This document shows positions 1,696 through 9,941 of a stretch of DNA of 58,641 nt, piece after piece; the stretch's first letter is position 1; each line of letters opens with the position of its first letter. Location: contig MTND01000029.1 in assembly GCA_002010305.1 (NCBI GenBank), forward strand, positions 1 through 58,641. Reading direction: 5' to 3'. Position numbers and translations under genes: made by a program. Origin of the DNA: Archaeoglobi archaeon JdFR-42 (GTDB taxonomy: Archaea > Halobacteriota > Archaeoglobi > Archaeoglobales > JdFR-42). Under the pieces are notes generated by a model that saw only the letters and a program-made list of their open reading frames with translations, was not told where the DNA came from and ran no database searches.

Positions 1696-2232
1696 ATGAA
1701 AGAGATCGCTATTGTTATTTCATCTTTCTTGGCTTTTCAGGCCATTCTGGTCTTTCCAGCCGAGGCTGGAGAGCTCCAGGTGGATGCATATTTCAATGGT
1801 AAGCCGGCAACAGTGGATTGGGTTGAAATGATGGAAGGAGAAAACTTCAATATCAGAATTAGTATCAAAGTAAGCTCGCCTGAAGTTGTAGATGTTTTAC
1901 TATATTCTCCTGGTTTTCCCCCTGACGAGCCTCAACCCTTCAGGGTGGTTAAAGGGCCGTCTGGATTTAATCAATTTATGGTGATATCGATGGAAGACAG
2001 CAAAGAACTCACCTGGGTTTTGGAACCTACCGGGGTATGGGTTAATGGAGTGGCTCCAATCAATCTTGTTGTCATATCTGAAAAAGAGGAAAAATACAGG
2101 GAGCATTTCACCATTGCGAAGGTTTACATCAAAAAAGGCTCAGACTTTACAAAATATCCCGTCGTACTTCTTTCTGCTGTGGGAATTGCTGGTTTAATCA
2201 CCCTCCTTCTATGGAAAAAAGATGTTAGGTAA
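1696..2232 (+). CDS. Sarcinarray-like secreted, membrane-anchored protein
   Basis: This 178-residue protein has an N-terminal signal peptide (about residues 1-24, ending PAEAG), a beta-rich outer domain and one C-terminal membrane helix (about 156-172, VVLLSAVGIAGLITLLL) followed by a short basic tail. The pattern NGKPATVD, VVKGPSG, LEPTGVWVNGVAPINL and FTIAKVYI resembles the sarcinarray family described from Methanosarcina, where such proteins occur in tandem sets. Here there is a single copy. The family's function is not known. An AT-rich promoter region (GATATATTAAT, about 1670-1680) lies just before the start. Confidence 0.6.
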   Translation: MKEIAIVISSFLAFQAILVFPAEAGELQVDAYFNGKPATVDWVEMMEGENFNIRISIKVSSPEVVDVLLYSPGFPPDEPQPFRVVKGPSGFNQFMVISMEDSKELTWVLEPTGVWVNGVAPINLVVISEKEEKYREHFTIAKVYIKKGSDFTKYPVVLLSAVGIAGLITLLLWKKDVR

Positions 2233-2236
2233 TTCG

Positions 2237-2248
2237 ATATATTTAAAT
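2237..2248 (+). promoter_or_regulatory. TATA box of the methyltransferase gene
   Basis: ATATATTTAAAT fits the archaeal TATA element. Transcription should begin about 25 bases downstream, near 2269. This places the upstream in-frame ATG at 2258 ahead of the transcript start and favours the ATG at 2279. Confidence 0.55.
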
Positions 2249-2278
2249 AGCATCTGAATGGGATGGGGATGGATAGAT

Positions 2279-2890
2279 ATGGGATATCTGGAGGATAAAA
2301 AACGGGCGAGAACCTTTTACAGGTACTTTTCGAAGATCTATGATTATATTAATCCAATTTTTTATTCAAAAGAAATGCGGGATAAAGTAGTGGAAATGGG
2401 CCGTCTTACCCGAGATATGAGGGTGGTAGAAGTTGGTTGTGGTACCGGTTTCACTTCAGAGGGGATTATCAAGGCTATTGGTATTGAAAATTTAGTCGCC
2501 CTTGACCAGTCTATTCACATGTATAAAAAAGCCAAGGAGAAATTCCATCTTAATTTTGTGTGGGGTGATGCTGAAAATCTACCCTTCAAGGATGATATGT
2601 TCGATGGAGCCATATCTGCTGGTTCCATAGAATACTGGCCGAATCCACAGAAAGGTATAGAGGAAATGTATAGGGTTATAAAACCTGGTTCGTGGGCTGT
2701 GATTATAGGACCAAACAAGCCAAAGAATACATTTTTCAGGTGGATGGCTGAGAGTATAATGCTTTTCCCCACAGTCGAAGAATATGTAACCTGGTATGAA
2801 CAAGCTGGTTTCAAAGATATAGAAGTGGTTGAAATCGGACCAAACAGGCTGTGGAAGCGACTGGCTGTGATTGTAGCGGGGAAAAAATAA
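2279..2890 (+). CDS. Class I SAM-dependent methyltransferase
   Basis: This protein of about 203 residues has the Rossmann methyltransferase signature: motif I VVEVGCGTGF, an acidic second strand LVALDQS, the GDAENLPF motif and the DGAISAGSIEYWPNP motif. The C-terminal WYEQAGFKDIEVVEIGPNR region resembles the MPBQ/MSBQ or UbiE/MenG-like quinone methyltransferases, so a respiratory quinone or methanophenazine ring is a plausible substrate, but this is inference. The start at 2279 is chosen from the TATA position; an in-frame ATG at 2258 would add seven residues (MGWGWID). It is a single-gene unit. Confidence 0.82.
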   Translation: MGYLEDKKRARTFYRYFSKIYDYINPIFYSKEMRDKVVEMGRLTRDMRVVEVGCGTGFTSEGIIKAIGIENLVALDQSIHMYKKAKEKFHLNFVWGDAENLPFKDDMFDGAISAGSIEYWPNPQKGIEEMYRVIKPGSWAVIIGPNKPKNTFFRWMAESIMLFPTVEEYVTWYEQAGFKDIEVVEIGPNRLWKRLAVIVAGKK

Positions 2891-2928
2891 GAAATACAGT
2901 ATGGATGGTTTTATCCGTCTTTTGTCAA

Positions 2929-4029
2929 TTATTTTCTAAAATCATATACGGATTTAATAGGTGTTCCGTCACTGAGGCTAATGGGTTTTGTTACTGAAAG
3001 AGTCTCTCCAAAGGTTGGAACACACATGGATTGCTTTCCGGGCCCTCCAGCTACAATAACCATGATATCTTCTGCTCTTGGGCATATGGGGATCATGGCG
3101 TGATCATCAGTAGAATCAAACCATCTGGGCCATACTCTCATTTTATACATTCCCCTGTCTTTCAGCTTGTATATTGGATTGCGAGCGTGGTTAAATATGT
3201 AGTTTTTCACATCCATTTTGCTGAAACCATCTCTTGCCACAGTCTCTGCGTGTTCTGGACTTAAAATAAGAAGAGGTTCACTCAAGTTGCTATACCATGT
3301 ATTGTTCCCACCGAGCGTGGCCATTGTGTCGGCTGCCGTTGTGAGAATTCCTGCTGCGTCAATGCTACTGTGGTCATTGATATTGTGTGGCCCCTCTCCA
3401 CCAACCACTGTGACTGTACTCACGTCTCTTTCAAATCCTCTTTCCACATGGAGCGGCTCCCATGGGTTTGCTTCCTCGTATTCTGCAATACAGTAGGTAT
3501 ATTTACCGGGATGTCCGTGTGTAGCCTTATCTCCCAGACCAGGCACTGCACCACCAATATTCATGCATATAAGATTTATAGCTCTTCCAATGGTTGCATT
3601 GGCTCTCCATCCTGGTCCAAAGAGGTTGTAACCTGAGTTTATATCCAGTTCCTTTCTGACAGGTCCATTAACTATGATCAGCGGTGAAACGGGATGTGTG
3701 GTCGTCAAGATCCCGTACAGATTGAATTCCTTCTCGACCATGGCCTCCACAGCAGTGATTATCACAGGTAGAAAACCTGGGATACAACCCGCCATAACAG
3801 CGTTAATGGCTATTTTTTCCACTGTAGCCTCTCCGTTCATGGGTGGTATAACCCCCACAATGTCATCTGACTCTCTATCAGTGTATTTCATCATATTTCT
3901 GACCCTTTCAGGAGTAGGTGGGATTATTGGTAATCCATCGATCCATTTTCTTCCATAGAATTCCTTATACACTGCCTCAATGTCGTCAGCAACTTCAATT
4001 ATTTCTGATTTAATAGCTACTTCTCCCAT
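2929..4029 (-). CDS. Conserved protein paired with the UGSC-family protein
   Basis: This 366-residue soluble protein lies four bases downstream of the UGSC-type gene on the same strand, so the two form an operon. It is rich in Gly-Pro-Asn loops (GVIPPMNG, VNGPVRKELDINSG, GGEGPHNINDHSSIDAAG, IVAGGPGKQS) and has conserved-looking Cys at CIPGF, LICMNIG and CPRAED. Pairing of such a protein with UGSC proteins is, to my knowledge, a recurrent arrangement in anaerobes, but the reaction is unknown. The Cys/Asn-rich loops and the redox-type partner suggest a two-subunit oxidoreductase or lyase; this is inference only. Confidence 0.7.
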   Translation of the reverse strand: MGEVAIKSEIIEVADDIEAVYKEFYGRKWIDGLPIIPPTPERVRNMMKYTDRESDDIVGVIPPMNGEATVEKIAINAVMAGCIPGFLPVIITAVEAMVEKEFNLYGILTTTHPVSPLIIVNGPVRKELDINSGYNLFGPGWRANATIGRAINLICMNIGGAVPGLGDKATHGHPGKYTYCIAEYEEANPWEPLHVERGFERDVSTVTVVGGEGPHNINDHSSIDAAGILTTAADTMATLGGNNTWYSNLSEPLLILSPEHAETVARDGFSKMDVKNYIFNHARNPIYKLKDRGMYKMRVWPRWFDSTDDHAMIPICPRAEDIMVIVAGGPGKQSMCVPTFGETLSVTKPISLSDGTPIKSVYDFRK

Positions 4030-4033
4030 GGTA

Positions 4034-4627
4034 TCACCTCAAATACTTCTCTCTGTATTCTCTCTCCAGTTTCTCGGCAGGAGTGGTCAGAACGTATATA
4101 ACTTCGTCAATGGTATGTTCTGCTTTTTTTCTTACCTCCTCTGGAGGTAATCCTCCACTTGGATGAGGAAAACTCGGGATTGGTAGCCCTGGCATTCCTC
4201 TAGCCTGAGCAGCATATTGCCCTAATGGGGCAAATTCACTGGAGCAAATAGTGGCTGTAGGAACACCTTCCTTTTCTAGGGTTATTCCGTCATCGATGGT
4301 CCATGCAGTACAGGATCCACAATCTCCATGTGCTATAACTACAGCATCACATTCCTTTACCAACTCACCAATTAGCTTTTTGTGGGCAGGATTGCTGGCT
4401 GAGTGTTTCCTTCTCCAGATAGAGTCTATTTCATACTGCTTTTCAATGAGTTCTTTAATCCTTCTCAGGAATACGTCTGCGTTTGGTTTGGTATTGTCCA
4501 GAAAGCCAATGGTTCTATTCTGGAGTGTGTTTAGCCTCTTTGCTATTCTATACTCTCTGCCTGATCTCACCTTTCCTACAGGCGTTAGAACTTTCATTCT
4601 CTTCTCTTTTTGTATCGAGACAACCAT
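4034..4627 (-). CDS. UGSC-family protein, cysteine form
   Basis: This 197-residue protein carries the motif G-D-C-G-S-C-T at residues 101-107 (C103, C106). In the UGSC selenoprotein family the first Cys position is selenocysteine; here it is an ordinary TGT Cys codon. Other family marks are GFLDNTKPNAD near residue 41, LVKECDAVVIAHGD, GVPTATICSSEF and the FPHPSGGL stretch. The family is thought to be redox active, with no established substrate. An AGGTGT ribosome site precedes the ATG at 4627; a second Met at residue 11 (MKVLTPVGKV) is a possible alternative start. First gene of the two-gene operon. Confidence 0.78.
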   Translation of the reverse strand: MVVSIQKEKRMKVLTPVGKVRSGREYRIAKRLNTLQNRTIGFLDNTKPNADVFLRRIKELIEKQYEIDSIWRRKHSASNPAHKKLIGELVKECDAVVIAHGDCGSCTAWTIDDGITLEKEGVPTATICSSEFAPLGQYAAQARGMPGLPIPSFPHPSGGLPPEEVRKKAEHTIDEVIYVLTTPAEKLEREYREKYLR

Positions 4628-4763: not shown

Positions 4764-5297
4764 TCAGACCAGTTTTTTTACAGCATTTTCAATGGCTTTT
4801 TCCACGCTTCGTCTGGGTCGGATAATGGATACGGGAATTCCTACAATTTTTTCGACAATATTGCTTATAATGGGGGCACATACGAGGGCCATAGCCCCAT
4901 CTTTTTCAGCCATGACTGCTGACACAATAGCTTCTTCTATGGATGTGGCAGGATATTCCCTCACAAGGATCTCTTTTCCCTCCGTCCTTACAATTCTTTC
5001 CTCAATATCCTCAAGGACATGTTTTGCAGCAATGACTGCAATAAAGTCTTTTTCTGGAAGTTTTTCTGCTTTTTTAAGACCCTGTATTATGGCTCTCAGA
5101 GTACTCAGGTTTGGCTCTCTCTCCCCTTTTACAATTTTATATAAGGTACTATATGGAATTCTGCAGAATTCACTGAATTGCAAAAGATTCATTTTCAGTT
5201 CATCGGTTATTATACCACTCAGAGTTTCTGCAAACTTCTTGTTAGATATCATGGCTGCATGAAGTAAGCGGCTGGACAGGTTCATATCCTTCTTCAA
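4764..5297 (-). CDS. HTH (XRE-type) transcriptional regulator with C-terminal sensor-like domain
   Basis: This 177-residue protein has an N-terminal helix-turn-helix (about residues 35-75: LLQFSEFCRIPYSTLYKIVKGEREPNLSTLRAIIQGL) of the Cro/XRE type. A C-terminal alpha/beta domain (about 85-177) has repeated hydrophobic strands (ATSIEEAIVSAVMAEKDGAMALVCAPI). It resembles archaeal predicted regulators of the COG1709 kind. The effector is unknown. It is divergent from the ABC transporter operon and upstream of the UGSC operon, so either could be its target. Confidence 0.78.
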   Translation of the reverse strand: MKKDMNLSSRLLHAAMISNKKFAETLSGIITDELKMNLLQFSEFCRIPYSTLYKIVKGEREPNLSTLRAIIQGLKKAEKLPEKDFIAVIAAKHVLEDIEERIVRTEGKEILVREYPATSIEEAIVSAVMAEKDGAMALVCAPIISNIVEKIVGIPVSIIRPRRSVEKAIENAVKKLV

Positions 5298-5387: not shown

Positions 5388-6443
5388 ATGGGGTGGAAAT
5401 TAATAGTCTTGTTGTTTGTGACCATTCTGGGAGCTCTCTTTGTAGGGGGATGCACTGAAAGGGGAGATGAAGACTCTCTCTATGTAATTAAAATGTCTCC
5501 AGCCAATATGATAGAACAGTTGAAGCTTGGAGAGATCGATGGATTCATAGCTTGGGAACCCTATAATGCTGAAGCGGTTGAAGGTGGATATGGGAAGTAT
5601 CTGATACATTCCAGGGATATATGGCCGGATCACCCTTGTTGTATCCTGGCCTATCGAGAAGGAGCAAATCTGGACGAGAATACCTTAAAAGCACTGGTGT
5701 GGGCTCACATCAAGGCTACTCAGTTCATTCAAAATCCAGCCAACCATGAGAAAGTTGTAAAGTATGCAGTGGAGTTTACAGGGAAAGAAGAAGCTGTGGT
5801 TAGAGAAGCATTGAAGGATATTGATTTTGTATTTTATCCTGAATCAGAGGAATTCAGAAATTATTATAAGAAACTTGCAGATGCAGGGATTTTGAATAAA
5901 GACCTTCAAGATCTGGGATACAAATCAGAAGATGAGTTTTTCAGTGACTTTCTGATGGAAGAATATTATAACGAAGTAATGAAAAAACTGAAGGAAGATC
6001 CATCATGGAAACCCGGCCCGGTTAGTGAAACAGTTAGAATCGGATTTTTGACAGCAGATCTACATGAGCTCGCCATCTATATTGCTCAGAAGGAAGGATA
6101 TTACGAAGATGTTGGTCTCGTACTAGGGAAAAACCTAATAATAAAGCAATATGCCAATGGGGTATACGCCATGGAAGGATTTAAAGCAGAGGAGATTGAC
6201 GTATCTTATCTGGGTGGGGCTCCAGCAACCCTTAAGCGGATAAACGATAACATTCAGATTCATGTGATTGGTGGTGCAAATAACGTTGGTTCTTCGGTAG
6301 TAGTGGCCAGAGACTCAGGCATTAACAGTATTGAGGATTTAAAGGGAAAGACCATCGCCATACCTGGTTTTGGTACAGTTCAGGATTTCCTACTTAGAAT
6401 GGTGGCTGAAAAAGCAAATCTTAAAATAGTCGTCAAGGAATAA
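5388..6443 (+). CDS. ABC transporter substrate-binding lipoprotein, apparently circularly permuted
   Basis: This 351-residue protein starts with a lipoprotein signal (residues 1-22, LFVGGC with C22 as the lipidated Cys). The rest resembles NrtA/SsuA/TauA-type (COG0715) binding proteins, but with the halves in reversed order. Residues about 33-205 (MSPANMIEQLKLGEIDGFIAW, DIWPDHPCCILA, THIKATEYIN-like WAHIKATQFI) match the part that normally comes second. Residues about 216-351 (VRIGFLTADLHELAIYIAQK, ANGVYAMEGF, IDVSYLGGAPATLKRI, DLKGKTIAIPGFGTVQ) match the part that normally comes first. The protein ends at LKIVVKE, just where the usual fold would run on into the VIKMSPANM strand. It is followed by permease and ATPase genes. 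The substrate is unknown (nitrate, sulfonate, thiamine-precursor or similar anions are typical). Confidence 0.82.
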   Translation: MGWKLIVLLFVTILGALFVGGCTERGDEDSLYVIKMSPANMIEQLKLGEIDGFIAWEPYNAEAVEGGYGKYLIHSRDIWPDHPCCILAYREGANLDENTLKALVWAHIKATQFIQNPANHEKVVKYAVEFTGKEEAVVREALKDIDFVFYPESEEFRNYYKKLADAGILNKDLQDLGYKSEDEFFSDFLMEEYYNEVMKKLKEDPSWKPGPVSETVRIGFLTADLHELAIYIAQKEGYYEDVGLVLGKNLIIKQYANGVYAMEGFKAEEIDVSYLGGAPATLKRINDNIQIHVIGGANNVGSSVVVARDSGINSIEDLKGKTIAIPGFGTVQDFLLRMVAEKANLKIVVKE

Positions 6444-6452
6444 AATAGATAG

Positions 6453-7220
6453 ATGAAAAGCGCGGGTATTCGTCTACTCTCCCTCTTTATTTTTTTCGGG
6501 GGATGGTACGGAATTGCGCTATCAGGTTTAGTTAATCTTCCCACACCCTTTGAGACCTTTCGTACCCTCATAATTCTTTTATTCACTCCAGAAAATGTTC
6601 TGGGCAGAACATTAGTAGAGCACGCTCTAGCCAGCCTTATTAGAGTTCTTAAAGGTTGTTTAATTGCCTTTTCAATGTCAATCCCCCTTGGCATAATTAT
6701 GGGGTGGTTTAGATGGTTTGGTGTATTTGCGTCTACCATGGTGGAAATGTTAAGGCCCATACCACCCCTTGCATGGATACCTCTTGCTTATCTTTTATTT
6801 GCTACATTTGATAATCCTGTCCAGATCGCTCAGATTTTTATTGTGTTTGTTGGAGCATTTTTTCCTGCATTGATAAATACAGTTGATGGAGCAAAAGCAA
6901 CTCCAAAAACACTGATTGAGATGGCTCAAGTATTTGGTGCCAGGGAATCCCAGGTTCTGAGGAAGGTTGTGTTACCTTACACCGTTCCCAATATCATTAC
7001 AGGTATACGAGTAGGTTTGGGAGTAGGGTGGATGACGATTGTTGCGGCTGAAATGGTGGGCGGTTCAGGAACAGGTCTCGGATATTTTATAATCATCATG
7101 TATGAAGTCGGAGGTAGGGTGCCTGAGATCATTTCAGGAATGATCATGATCGGATTGATTGGTTATGGGATGAATGAACTGCTTATGGAGGTCGAGAAGA
7201 GGATGTTAGCATGGCGTTAG
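6453..7220 (+). CDS. ABC transporter permease (NitT/TauT type)
   Basis: This 255-residue membrane protein has an N-terminal hydrophobic helix, several further helices and the cytoplasmic coupling loop of the BPD permease family (EMAQVFGARESQVLRKVVLPYTVPNIITGIRVGLGVGWMTIVAAEM, about residues 164-210). It would form the channel of the uptake system encoded here. It starts ten bases after the binding-protein gene and overlaps the ATPase gene by ten bases, so the three are one operon. Confidence 0.9.
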   Translation: MKSAGIRLLSLFIFFGGWYGIALSGLVNLPTPFETFRTLIILLFTPENVLGRTLVEHALASLIRVLKGCLIAFSMSIPLGIIMGWFRWFGVFASTMVEMLRPIPPLAWIPLAYLLFATFDNPVQIAQIFIVFVGAFFPALINTVDGAKATPKTLIEMAQVFGARESQVLRKVVLPYTVPNIITGIRVGLGVGWMTIVAAEMVGGSGTGLGYFIIIMYEVGGRVPEIISGMIMIGLIGYGMNELLMEVEKRMLAWR

Positions 7221-7933
7221 AGATCAGAGAGATATCAAAGAGTTTTAACGATCTTCCTGTTCTGGATGCAGTTTCCTTTACAGTGGATGAAGGAGAGTTT
7301 GTTTGTGTTGTTGGACCCAGTGGGTGTGGAAAAACAACGTTGCTCAGAATTATCGGGGGCTTGGAACCACCTACGAAGGGGCATATAACAATGGATGGTG
7401 AACCATTAAAGAAAAAAGACATAGGTTTCGTCTTTCAGGAATATGCTCTTCTCCCATGGAGAACTGTGATTGAGAATATTGAGTTTGGTCTTGAGTTGCG
7501 GGGTATTGACAAAACAGAAAGAAAAAGAAGAGCCATGGAGTTGATTGAGCTTGTTGGACTGGAAGGATTCGAGCGAAGTTTTCCCAAAGAGCTATCAGGT
7601 GGGATGAAGCAAAGGGTGGGGATCGCCCGGGCTCTAGCTGTTAATCCAAAAATTCTGTTGATGGATGAGCCTTTTGCCAGCCTTGATGCCCAGACGAGGA
7701 ATAAAATGCAAGAAGAGGTTCTCAGAGTATGGGAAAAAACAAGAAAGACTGTAATATTTGTAACCCATAGCGTTGATGAAGCAGTTTTTCTGGCCGATAA
7801 AGTAGTAGTTCTGTCACGTAGACCAGCCAAGATCTGTAAAGAAATTATTGTGGAAGCTGAAAGACCGAGAGATAGGCTTAACAGAAATCTGATAGAGAAA
7901 AGAAAAGAGATTCTGGATTTGTTATCTCGTTGA
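7211..7933 (+). CDS. ABC transporter ATP-binding protein (NitT/TauT type)
   Basis: This 240-residue ATPase has Walker A GPSGCGKTT (about residues 35-43), Q-loop VFQEYALLPW, signature LSGGMKQR, Walker B ILLMDEPFASLD and the switch His in VTHSVDEA. It resembles SsuB/TauB/NrtD. It energises the permease encoded immediately upstream, with a ten-base overlap. The start ATG at 7211 lies inside the permease end (GTTAGCATGGCG), giving translational coupling. Confidence 0.93.
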   Translation: MALEIREISKSFNDLPVLDAVSFTVDEGEFVCVVGPSGCGKTTLLRIIGGLEPPTKGHITMDGEPLKKKDIGFVFQEYALLPWRTVIENIEFGLELRGIDKTERKRRAMELIELVGLEGFERSFPKELSGGMKQRVGIARALAVNPKILLMDEPFASLDAQTRNKMQEEVLRVWEKTRKTVIFVTHSVDEAVFLADKVVVLSRRPAKICKEIIVEAERPRDRLNRNLIEKRKEILDLLSR

Positions 7934-8066
7934 AAGTAAGTGGATCAGTTGTGTTTGTGATTTCCATTTATCTATGTCTATTGATTCTTGTACCTGTTCG
8001 GTTTTTAATTAAATTTTTAATTAATATTAATGTGTTTTTACAGATTTTGTAAAAACCGATAAACCC

Positions 8067-8075
8067 TTTTATAAA
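8067..8075 (+). promoter_or_regulatory. TATA box of the thioredoxin operon
   Basis: CTTTTATAA lies in an AT-rich stretch. Transcription would begin near 8097, ruling against the upstream GTG start at 8094 and leaving an untranslated leader of about 50 bases before ATG 8151. Confidence 0.45.
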
Positions 8076-8150
8076 GGAACAGGCATAGATGGTGTGTGTA
8101 AGGCCACATCTTACAATCTGTCGGCTCACACTGACGATATGGTGAAGAAA

Positions 8151-8435
8151 ATGCGAGAAGAAACAGTTGAAAGTGAATTTGTGACTATTAAGGTTATAAC
8201 ATCCCCTACATGCCCGTACTGCCCTCAAGCAGTCAAACTGGTTAGAGAGCTTGCTAAAAATGATTCAGGTATAATTGCAGTAGAGTTACCGATTACCACA
8301 TCTCGTGGATATCAAGAGGCTGTGAAATTTGGGATAAGTGGTGTACCCTCTCTGATAATCAACGATAGACACGTAGTTCATGGTCTTCCTTCAAAAGAAA
8401 AGCTGCTAATGGCAATAGAGATGGAAAGGAGGTGA
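8151..8435 (+). CDS. Glutaredoxin/thioredoxin-like thiol-disulfide protein (CPYC)
   Basis: This small protein of about 94 residues has a thioredoxin fold with active site C21-P-Y-C24 (ITSPTCPYCPQAVKLVREL), the cis-Pro motif GVPSLIIN and the closing HGLPSKEKL segment. It resembles the archaeal glutaredoxin-like redoxins that reduce protein disulfides. The start at 8151 is chosen because GGTGA sits five bases ahead of it; upstream in-frame starts at 8139 and 8094 lack such a site. Its stop codon overlaps the ribosome site of the next gene, so the two redoxins are made together. Confidence 0.83.
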   Translation: MREETVESEFVTIKVITSPTCPYCPQAVKLVRELAKNDSGIIAVELPITTSRGYQEAVKFGISGVPSLIINDRHVVHGLPSKEKLLMAIEMERR

Positions 8436-8439
8436 AAAT

Positions 8440-8763
8440 ATGTTGGAAATCAATGAGACCAATTTTGAGAGAGAAGTTCTGAACTCTGAGAAACCTGTCG
8501 TAGTAGATTTTTGGGCTCCTTGGTGTATGCCATGTCTGATGCTTGCGCCGACTTTTGAAAAGGTCTCTCAGCAATACAATGGGAAAGCTAAATTTGCTAA
8601 AGTGAACACGGATAATAACCCCAACATAGCTATGAGGTATGGCGTGTTCAGTATTCCCACCATAATCATTTTCCACAAAGGCGAAGCAGTGGATACCATT
8701 GTTGGTGCTGTACCAGAAAATATGCTCAGATCTAGAATAGATCAGGTTCTTTCAGAGCTGTAA
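8440..8763 (+). CDS. Thioredoxin (CMPC active site)
   Basis: This 107-residue thioredoxin has the WAPWC29MPC32 active site, VVVDFWAPW strand, NPNIAMRYGVFSIPTIIIF with cis-Pro, and VGAVPENML. The middle residues are Met-Pro in place of Gly-Pro, which probably shifts its redox potential. A near-ideal GGAGGTGA site lies five bases ahead of the ATG. Sitting beside another redoxin and a radical SAM gene, it may serve iron-sulfur or thiol maintenance. No thioredoxin reductase gene is in the window. Confidence 0.93.
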   Translation: MLEINETNFEREVLNSEKPVVVDFWAPWCMPCLMLAPTFEKVSQQYNGKAKFAKVNTDNNPNIAMRYGVFSIPTIIIFHKGEAVDTIVGAVPENMLRSRIDQVLSEL

Positions 8764-8856
8764 GGTTAGAGTGTCTAGAATAGAGAAGAACTTCATAGAA
8801 CATTTCTGAATTATCCATGAGTCCGAAATGGCTTAGCAATAGATAGCCAGAATTAC

Positions 8857-9567
8857 GTGAGAAAAGTTATGAAGTTGAGAGTAACAGGATTACATGTAGA
8901 CGGAAAGAAAGGCAGACTGGAACTGGCAGGGTGTAATCTCCGTTGTCCTTACTGTGTTCATACAAACCTCCCATTTTATACCCTGACAATAGATACCATC
9001 TTTGAGAGGTTGGAAGGAATCGAATCAATATATGTTGGTGGAGCCGAGCCTCTCATACAGAAAAGGGCTCTGATACCACTATTAAGGGAACTCGGAGAGA
9101 GGGGTGTGTATATAACGTTGAAAACGGATGGAGCTGATAGTAGAGCTTTAGAGTCGGTTTTACCATATGTTGATCGAGTTGTGATAGAGTTAAAAGGAGA
9201 TCTGGATGATGAAATAGCGTTGAAGACGTTAACGGGGCTGGACGATAAGCCATTAAAAAGATATATTAGAGAATTTAAGCGTAGCATCAGGCTGGTTAAA
9301 AACAAGAAAACCAGGCTCTGGATCAGAGTGATACCGGGCTTTGTTAACCCAATTAATTTCAGAAAAATGCTGGAAGAGATAGGAGAAGTTGAGGAGATAA
9401 TGTTGTATCAATTTTTAAGTGATCCATCTTACGATAAACCTTTTGGAGAACATAACATGAAACCAGAATGGGAACTGGTGGAAGAACTGGCCGTAATTGC
9501 GCTAGATTTCTCCTCTAAAGTTATACAGTATGGAGATAACCATGAAATCAAAGTGAGGGGTGTATGA
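8857..9567 (+). CDS. Radical SAM protein (pyruvate formate-lyase activase-like)
   Basis: This protein of about 236 residues has the CxxxCxxC cluster motif at residues 26-33 (AGCNLRCPYC). A GGAEPL motif follows for SAM binding, then YITLKTDG and VVIELKGD strands. It resembles archaeal COG1180 activase-like proteins, whose targets are mostly unknown. The GTG at 8857 and the ATG at 8869 are both possible starts; neither has a clear ribosome site. Its last four bases overlap the start of the TrmB-like gene, so the two are co-translated. The nearby ferredoxin could supply electrons. Confidence 0.83.
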   Translation: MRKVMKLRVTGLHVDGKKGRLELAGCNLRCPYCVHTNLPFYTLTIDTIFERLEGIESIYVGGAEPLIQKRALIPLLRELGERGVYITLKTDGADSRALESVLPYVDRVVIELKGDLDDEIALKTLTGLDDKPLKRYIREFKRSIRLVKNKKTRLWIRVIPGFVNPINFRKMLEEIGEVEEIMLYQFLSDPSYDKPFGEHNMKPEWELVEELAVIALDFSSKVIQYGDNHEIKVRGV

Positions 9568-9941
9568 TGAGATCCATTTATGAAATTCTGAATTCTCTGA
9601 CATGTGATGATGTTTTAACCTGTTTTTATGGGTTGAAAGAGCTGGATGCCCAAGTTTATAAAGTCCTTGTAAAAAAAGGTCAGATGAAGATAGATGAGAT
9701 AAGTACCATTTTAGAGCGCAGAGAGAATACCGTATACAAGTCTCTCCAAAGGTTGATGGCCCACGGACTGGTAATCAGACGTCAAGAAATACTACGAAAA
9801 GGTGGATATTATTTTCTGTATCAGGCTATTGATCCATCTAGGGTTGTTAATGAAATGAAAGAGGTTCTGAAGGAATGGTATTCGAAAATACAGGATGTTC
9901 TAGATGAGTTTCATAAAGAAGTGCTGTCAGATGAGATGTAG
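9564..9941 (+). CDS. TrmB-like winged-helix transcriptional regulator
   Basis: This 125-residue protein has a TrmB/MarR-like winged helix (about residues 20-85: LKELDAQVYKVLVKKGQMKIDEISTIL, RRENTVYKSLQRLMAHGLVIRRQEI), followed by a helical C-terminal stretch (VVNEMKEVLKEWYSKIQDVLDEF) likely to dimerise. There is no effector domain of the larger TrmB proteins. It overlaps the radical SAM gene by four bases, so it may regulate its own redox cluster. Confidence 0.8.
   Translation: MMRSIYEILNSLTCDDVLTCFYGLKELDAQVYKVLVKKGQMKIDEISTILERRENTVYKSLQRLMAHGLVIRRQEILRKGGYYFLYQAIDPSRVVNEMKEVLKEWYSKIQDVLDEFHKEVLSDEM

Follow-up and report, generated by a model that had tools for sequence, protein, structure and literature searches.

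The substrate-binding protein (SBP) encoded at positions 5388–6443 of the window—the whole 58,641-nucleotide stretch of Archaeoglobi archaeon JdFR-42 DNA that was analysed—is an NMT1/SsuA/TauA/NrtA-type lipoprotein in which the C-terminal half of the normal fold precedes the N-terminal half, the chain being cut at the first crossover between the lobes. Taken as a whole, it is very probably a functional, anchored SBP permuted at the hinge, within an archaeal family that permutes repeatedly. A first-pass annotation of the sequence had described the reversed halves and could not see the age and wide distribution of the permutation, or that the SBP family contains others. The gene is built as follows:

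5388–6443, plus strand: SBP open reading frame, a circularly permuted lipoprotein of 351 aa in the order signal, C-half, linker, N-half
5388–5453, plus strand: lipoprotein signal peptide with lipobox, ending at Cys22 (VGGC), read directly from the sequence
5475–5492, plus strand: hinge-strand residues SLYVIK at the new N-terminus (model strand, residues 9–14)
5478–5987, plus strand: C-half of the normal fold (LYVIKMSPANM to MKK) with the EP and DIWPDHPCC motifs (NMT1_2 profile 156–250; doubled profile)
5988–6032, plus strand: linker LKEDPSWKPGPVSET, between the former C- and N-termini (alignment A1; AlphaFold model)
6033–6440, plus strand: N-half of the normal fold (VRIGFL to LKIVVKE) with the DLHxL and GGAPATLKR motifs (Pfam NMT1 profile 6–114; doubled profile)
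6423–6434, plus strand: hinge-strand residues KIVV at the new C-terminus (model strand, residues 325–328)

The reversed order is borne out by profile and structure-database matches that split into two. Residues 33–126 match the end of Pfam NMT1_2 (profile positions 156–250 of 252) and residues 229–341 the start of Pfam NMT1 (6–114 of 216), with scores in two blocks of 100 bits for PF13379 (cut-off 24.7) and 46 bits for PF09084 (cut-off 20.5). TIGR01728, the SsuA family model, also matches in two stretches, at 109 bits, below its cut-off of 163.5. Among PDB sequences, NrtA, CmpA and SsuA align by their C-half alone to residues ~30–126, and TauA and SsuA by their N-half to residues ~253–337. The protein is NMT1/SsuA-like in sequence over both lobes, carries an export signal and lipid anchor, and is accompanied by cognate permease and ATPase genes; the usual sequence of N-lobe half before C-lobe half is what it reverses. 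For rotation typing, family members were de-rotated to normal order, the alignment was doubled (316 + 316 columns) and every open reading frame was aligned to it, the first matched column giving the cut. Against this doubled profile of normal-order chains (L = 316), the window SBP aligns once over its entire length, at columns 128–444 with 433 bits, so that it starts and ends at column 128, whereas complete normal-order members start at columns 304–316 or 0–9. The reversed order is kept in more than 45 proteins, which excludes a chance origin.

An AlphaFold model of the mature window SBP, made with family alignment A1, is one compact protein with a pLDDT of 94.5 and a pTM of 0.90, and pLDDT falls below 50 in the first four residues alone. 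The first-pass annotation had placed the break at the strand that joins the lobes. The model agrees, with the nuance that hinge-strand residues form a strand at both new termini (residues 9–14 and 325–328). The linker between the halves is variable in sequence and length in alignment A1 and has little secondary structure in the model. In a Foldseek search in chain order the best solved match was OpuAC (E 1.8e-5, TM 0.37–0.48, rmsd 8–14 Å); a sequential search cannot superpose a permuted chain, and the low TM-scores to solved proteins follow from this, since permuted chains cannot align sequentially with normal ones. No solved structure colinear with the window SBP was found, all solved members found being in normal order.

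Full-length colinear homologues were found in 21 of 60 related genomes, the window's own included (51–59% identity), plus one fragment at a contig end, and separate searches with each half gave the permuted order in every one of them. Some of the genomes with a window-order homologue are single contigs. The lipobox cysteine is kept in all Archaeoglobi homologues, and the window order also occurs in other families of Halobacteriota and in Methanomassiliicoccales. In nucleotide comparisons dN/dS was 0.03–0.08 in eight close pairs (dS was saturated in a ninth), and the window SBP is under purifying selection. The first-pass annotation had allowed for an assembly error, in which a tandem pair of normal-order genes collapsed into an apparently single permuted gene. 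The window genome is a 42-contig draft, and a relative (L039) does carry tandem SBP genes, with another NMT1_2 gene directly upstream. Against this stand the same order at 51–59% identity in independent genomes, single-contig ones among them, and the purifying selection on the permuted gene. The probability of such an artefact is negligible and the window order is not a misassembly. The circular permutation that had been suggested is thus backed by colinear homologues, purifying selection, a confident predicted fold and the existence of normal-order sisters.

The permease and ATPase genes reported downstream are in place and conserved in relatives, and a regulator gene lies divergently upstream:

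6453–7220, plus strand: ABC permease (BPD_transp_1, SaoP/NtrB/TauC-like; profile matches), adjoining the SBP in most loci
7211–7933, plus strand: ABC ATPase (SaoA/TauB-like; profile matches and locus comparison)
4764–5297, minus strand: divergent HTH regulator with a PrpR_N-like part, with homologues in 29 of 61 contexts

The regulator is conserved beside permuted and normal-order SBPs alike. Between it and the upstream genes, the interval 2929–4627 (minus strand) encodes a UGSC-family protein (PF24696; NF041046 above cut-off) adjoined by a 366 aa protein with no Pfam or NCBIfam match; no RNA element was found in Rfam near the SBP. The SaoX/SaoP/SaoA system (NCBIfam NF040735 etc.) resembles this locus in that its models for a related SBP, permease and ATPase give matches, and in the nearby UGSC-family gene. 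Membership was rejected, as the scores lie far below the cut-offs (SaoX 47.5 vs. 300; SaoP 138.6 vs. 295; SaoA 263 vs. 360). SaoX is itself in normal order, and a later part of its profile (129–228) matches the start of the window SBP.

Other loci offer clues to the ligand. In a class-level relative (L039, genome G057) genes at 6651–9825 (plus strand) encode a cysteate synthase (TIGR03844, 360 bits; cut-off 324.9) and a sulfopyruvate decarboxylase (TIGR03845, 185 bits; cut-off 148), and are followed immediately by a second NMT1_2 SBP and the permuted SBP. The two enzymes catalyse steps of coenzyme M biosynthesis, and the cluster possibly serves the import and synthesis of coenzyme M or a sulfonate. 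In Ferroglobus-type loci, an AcsV-like corrinoid activator and an MtrH-family methyltransferase are encoded upstream of the permuted SBP (L050, 6457–9296, plus strand; L058, 8554–9495, plus strand). Judged from gene content, the likeliest ligand would be a sulfonate, or some other small anion with a connection to C1 or coenzyme M metabolism; because the SBP neighbours differ between lineages, the ligand may differ too. In one further locus (L144, 3965–6645, plus strand) a permuted SBP comes immediately after a Cache-domain histidine kinase; it has neither a permease nor an ATPase next to it and may act as a sensor.

The closest normal-order relatives are bacterial, from Desulfosarcina cetonica, a Dehalococcoidia MAG and two further bacterial MAGs. 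They share 33–43% identity with the window SBP, measured by half, and have the DLHxL and DIWPDHPCC motifs in common with it. A close relative is present in 25 of 297 Desulfobacterota genomes (24 plus Desulfosarcina), always in normal order, and among 251 Chloroflexota genomes the Dehalococcoidia genome alone has one above threshold. No permuted bacterial member passed the E 1e-28 threshold in these 297 Desulfobacterota and 251 Chloroflexota genomes; permuted forms were found solely in archaea, in two phyla. A few archaeal members are in normal order (L113, L134, L245 and L246). One normal-order SBP makes up the last part of a bacterial protein of 535 aa (L092, 385–1989, plus strand), which carries ~230 additional residues at its N-terminus.

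Aligned to the doubled profile, the family shows five chain orders: normal (column 0) and cuts near columns 68, 90, 127 (the window order) and 168. Proteins of the window class start near column 128 and end near 127. The column-68 class, from Methanomassiliicoccales, starts near 68–72 and ends near 68, several members being classed by their end column and not their start column because the N-terminal piece has diverged. The column-168 class, from seven genomes (L130 and L239–L244), runs from near 171 round to near 166. The cut near column 90 was given little weight, as it consists of two single cases (L138 and L141), each from a single draft genome. Each chain ends no more than about five residues from its own cut; the exceptions are L138, with its C-terminal anchor, and L110, whose end has diverged. 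A column-68 form was modelled with a pLDDT of 87.2 and a pTM of 0.86 and is predicted to fold well; in Foldseek a column-68 relative matches SsuA, NrtA and Thi5 across ~235–290 columns, through its normal-order part. In L138 (4936–6123, minus strand; cut near column 90) a PGF-type membrane anchor sits at the new C-terminus; L185, its sister in normal order, has such a C-terminal anchor too. One window-order SBP with degraded motifs opens a protein of more than 900 aa (L235, 1–2700, minus strand), the remainder of which has the look of fibronectin-type and beta-helix repeats; re-use as a surface protein is possible.

Permutation by duplication predicts intermediates in which two copies are fused (PMC3320104), and such doubles are present in this family:

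L117, 5385–7754, plus strand: fused double of column-68 copies, upstream of a permease and an ATPase
L118, 4669–7047, plus strand: fused double of column-68 copies
L221, 394–2691, minus strand: fused double of column-68 copies
L223, 397–2706, minus strand: fused double of column-68 copies
L234 (genome G1344), 2231–4423, plus strand: fused double of 731 aa with two window-order copies

The four column-68 doubles, each from a different genome, are 766–793 aa long. Copy-to-copy identity is 86% in L117 and 73% in L118, so that these are not assembly duplicates. The window-type double comes from one draft genome only. Its first copy has lost conserved motifs (HPCC has become HPGS, and GSPP has become DPAS) and looks like a decaying copy on its way out. 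The fused doubles look like the intermediate step of permutation by duplication.

Trees of the de-rotated sequences require at least 7 order changes with 64 rows and at least 10 with 78 rows, fused double copies being scored as a separate state. Three more hinge-cut proteins (L087, L139 and L140) sit on a long branch elsewhere in a wide tree and were excluded from these counts. In AU tests a single clade was rejected for the window order (p = 0.018, a modest value, with groups named once a first tree was in view), for the column-168 order (p = 0.0005), and for all normal-order proteins together (p = 0.025; 8e-66 with L253 included). A single origin of the column-68 cut was not rejected (p = 0.336), and a separate column-68 origin for L112, which had been considered, is unsupported. 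L253 (1423–2640, plus strand) is in normal order and nested inside a column-168 clade (100/100), a placement that suggests a switch back to the ancestral order. Trees built separately from the N-halves and C-halves both recover most of the main groups, with few extra changes, which argues for one gene that was rotated and is not obviously chimeric; a chimera of two unrelated SBP genes was rejected on these grounds. The exact number of order changes is uncertain because the deep Thermoplasmatota branches, including the base of that clade, have no more than moderate support; some rows are long.

That the order changed recurrently is well supported by these sequence trees. An account with one old hinge permutation in an archaeal ancestor, followed by reversals only, would suit the fact that most archaeal members near the window share its order, and it gains from the moderate support for the deep Thermoplasmatota branches. 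We consider it unlikely: reversals are themselves permutations, the cuts at columns 68, 168 and 90 need extra events, and one-clade histories were rejected for both the window order and the column-168 order. Repeated rotation within a single archaeal ABC SBP family is the likely history. It would comprise at least 10 changes, five cut sites, a reversion to ancestral order in L253 and fused doubles as working intermediates, while the anchor and the operon stayed fixed.

The best explanation for the route of repeated permutation is tandem duplication, fusion and trimming. The gene would be duplicated in tandem and the copies fused in frame; once the outer parts, now redundant, were lost, the chain would begin at a new point, and the anchor segment would be kept in front at each rotation. 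The first-pass annotation had proposed duplication and trimming for the window gene. The fused doubles in relatives lend this proposal indirect support, as does a seam in the recently rotated L141: GTPGVKD precedes the mature N-terminus in its normal-order sister L169, and GTPKVKD is internal in L141, between the old C- and N-termini. For the particular event behind the window gene, duplication and trimming is the course we infer. Circular permutation has a second recognised route (PMC3320104), fission and fusion, by which halves that were once separate genes would have been rejoined in the opposite order. We regard it as a decidedly poor candidate here, as separate-half genes were not seen in any locus, fused doubles of the kind expected from duplication occur in five genomes, and L141 retains the old mature N-terminal linker internally, as fusion of whole copies would leave it. 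As to function, NMT1/THI5-like folds include enzymes, and the homologue beside the histidine kinase lacks a neighbouring permease or ATPase, so that an SBP-derived enzyme or sensor (cf. THI5-like proteins) might be considered in place of a transporter component. For the window gene this is very improbable, given that a permease and an ATPase are encoded beside it and beside most homologues, and that these proteins bear a lipoprotein signal or a membrane anchor. As a component of an ABC importer, the permuted chain would fold to the usual two-lobed NMT1/SsuA-type binding protein, with the lipidated cysteine tethering it close to the hinge and the old N-lobe half last in the chain. The ligand would be held between the lobes and handed to the permease and ATPase whose genes follow directly; the window SBP presumably serves in transport in this way.

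Circular permutation is usually studied as something that happened rarely, once and long ago, or else as a laboratory device for making sensors from binding proteins. OpuAC (PDB: 2B4L/2B4M) is a circular permutant among the glycine-betaine and molybdate binding proteins (CPSARST, PMC2395249). It resembles the window SBP as a two-lobed SBP of permuted order, and is the best full-length structural match to the model in chain order. Identity is 13–14% and TM at most 0.48, however, and the window SBP has no OpuAC Pfam match, its halves matching NMT1/SsuA instead; the two look like independent cases of the same kind. The Treponema pallidum lipoprotein MglB-2 (Tp0684) is a natural permuted SBP conserved in a bacterial group, with glucose binding and domain closure kept (PMC4990184); it differs in its Type I/cluster B fold, its family, its single permutation and its cut. 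SsuA, TauA, NrtA and CmpA represent the sequence family of both window halves, and their systems have permeases and ATPases of the same TauBC/NrtBC kind, but the solved members found are in normal order. In the open-licence literature we found no papers on circular permutation in archaeal SBPs of this type and no published SBP family with repeated rotation. Single natural permutants are already known; what is new is repeated rotation in one operon-linked family with living intermediates.

For sequence annotation, a consequence is that profile databases match such permuted SBPs in pieces only. For transport, the family suggests that the ABC importer tolerates binding-protein anchors at quite different positions. 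With many permutants, several cuts, normal-order sisters, an apparent reversion and fused doubles, this one family makes the duplication-and-trimming model directly testable.
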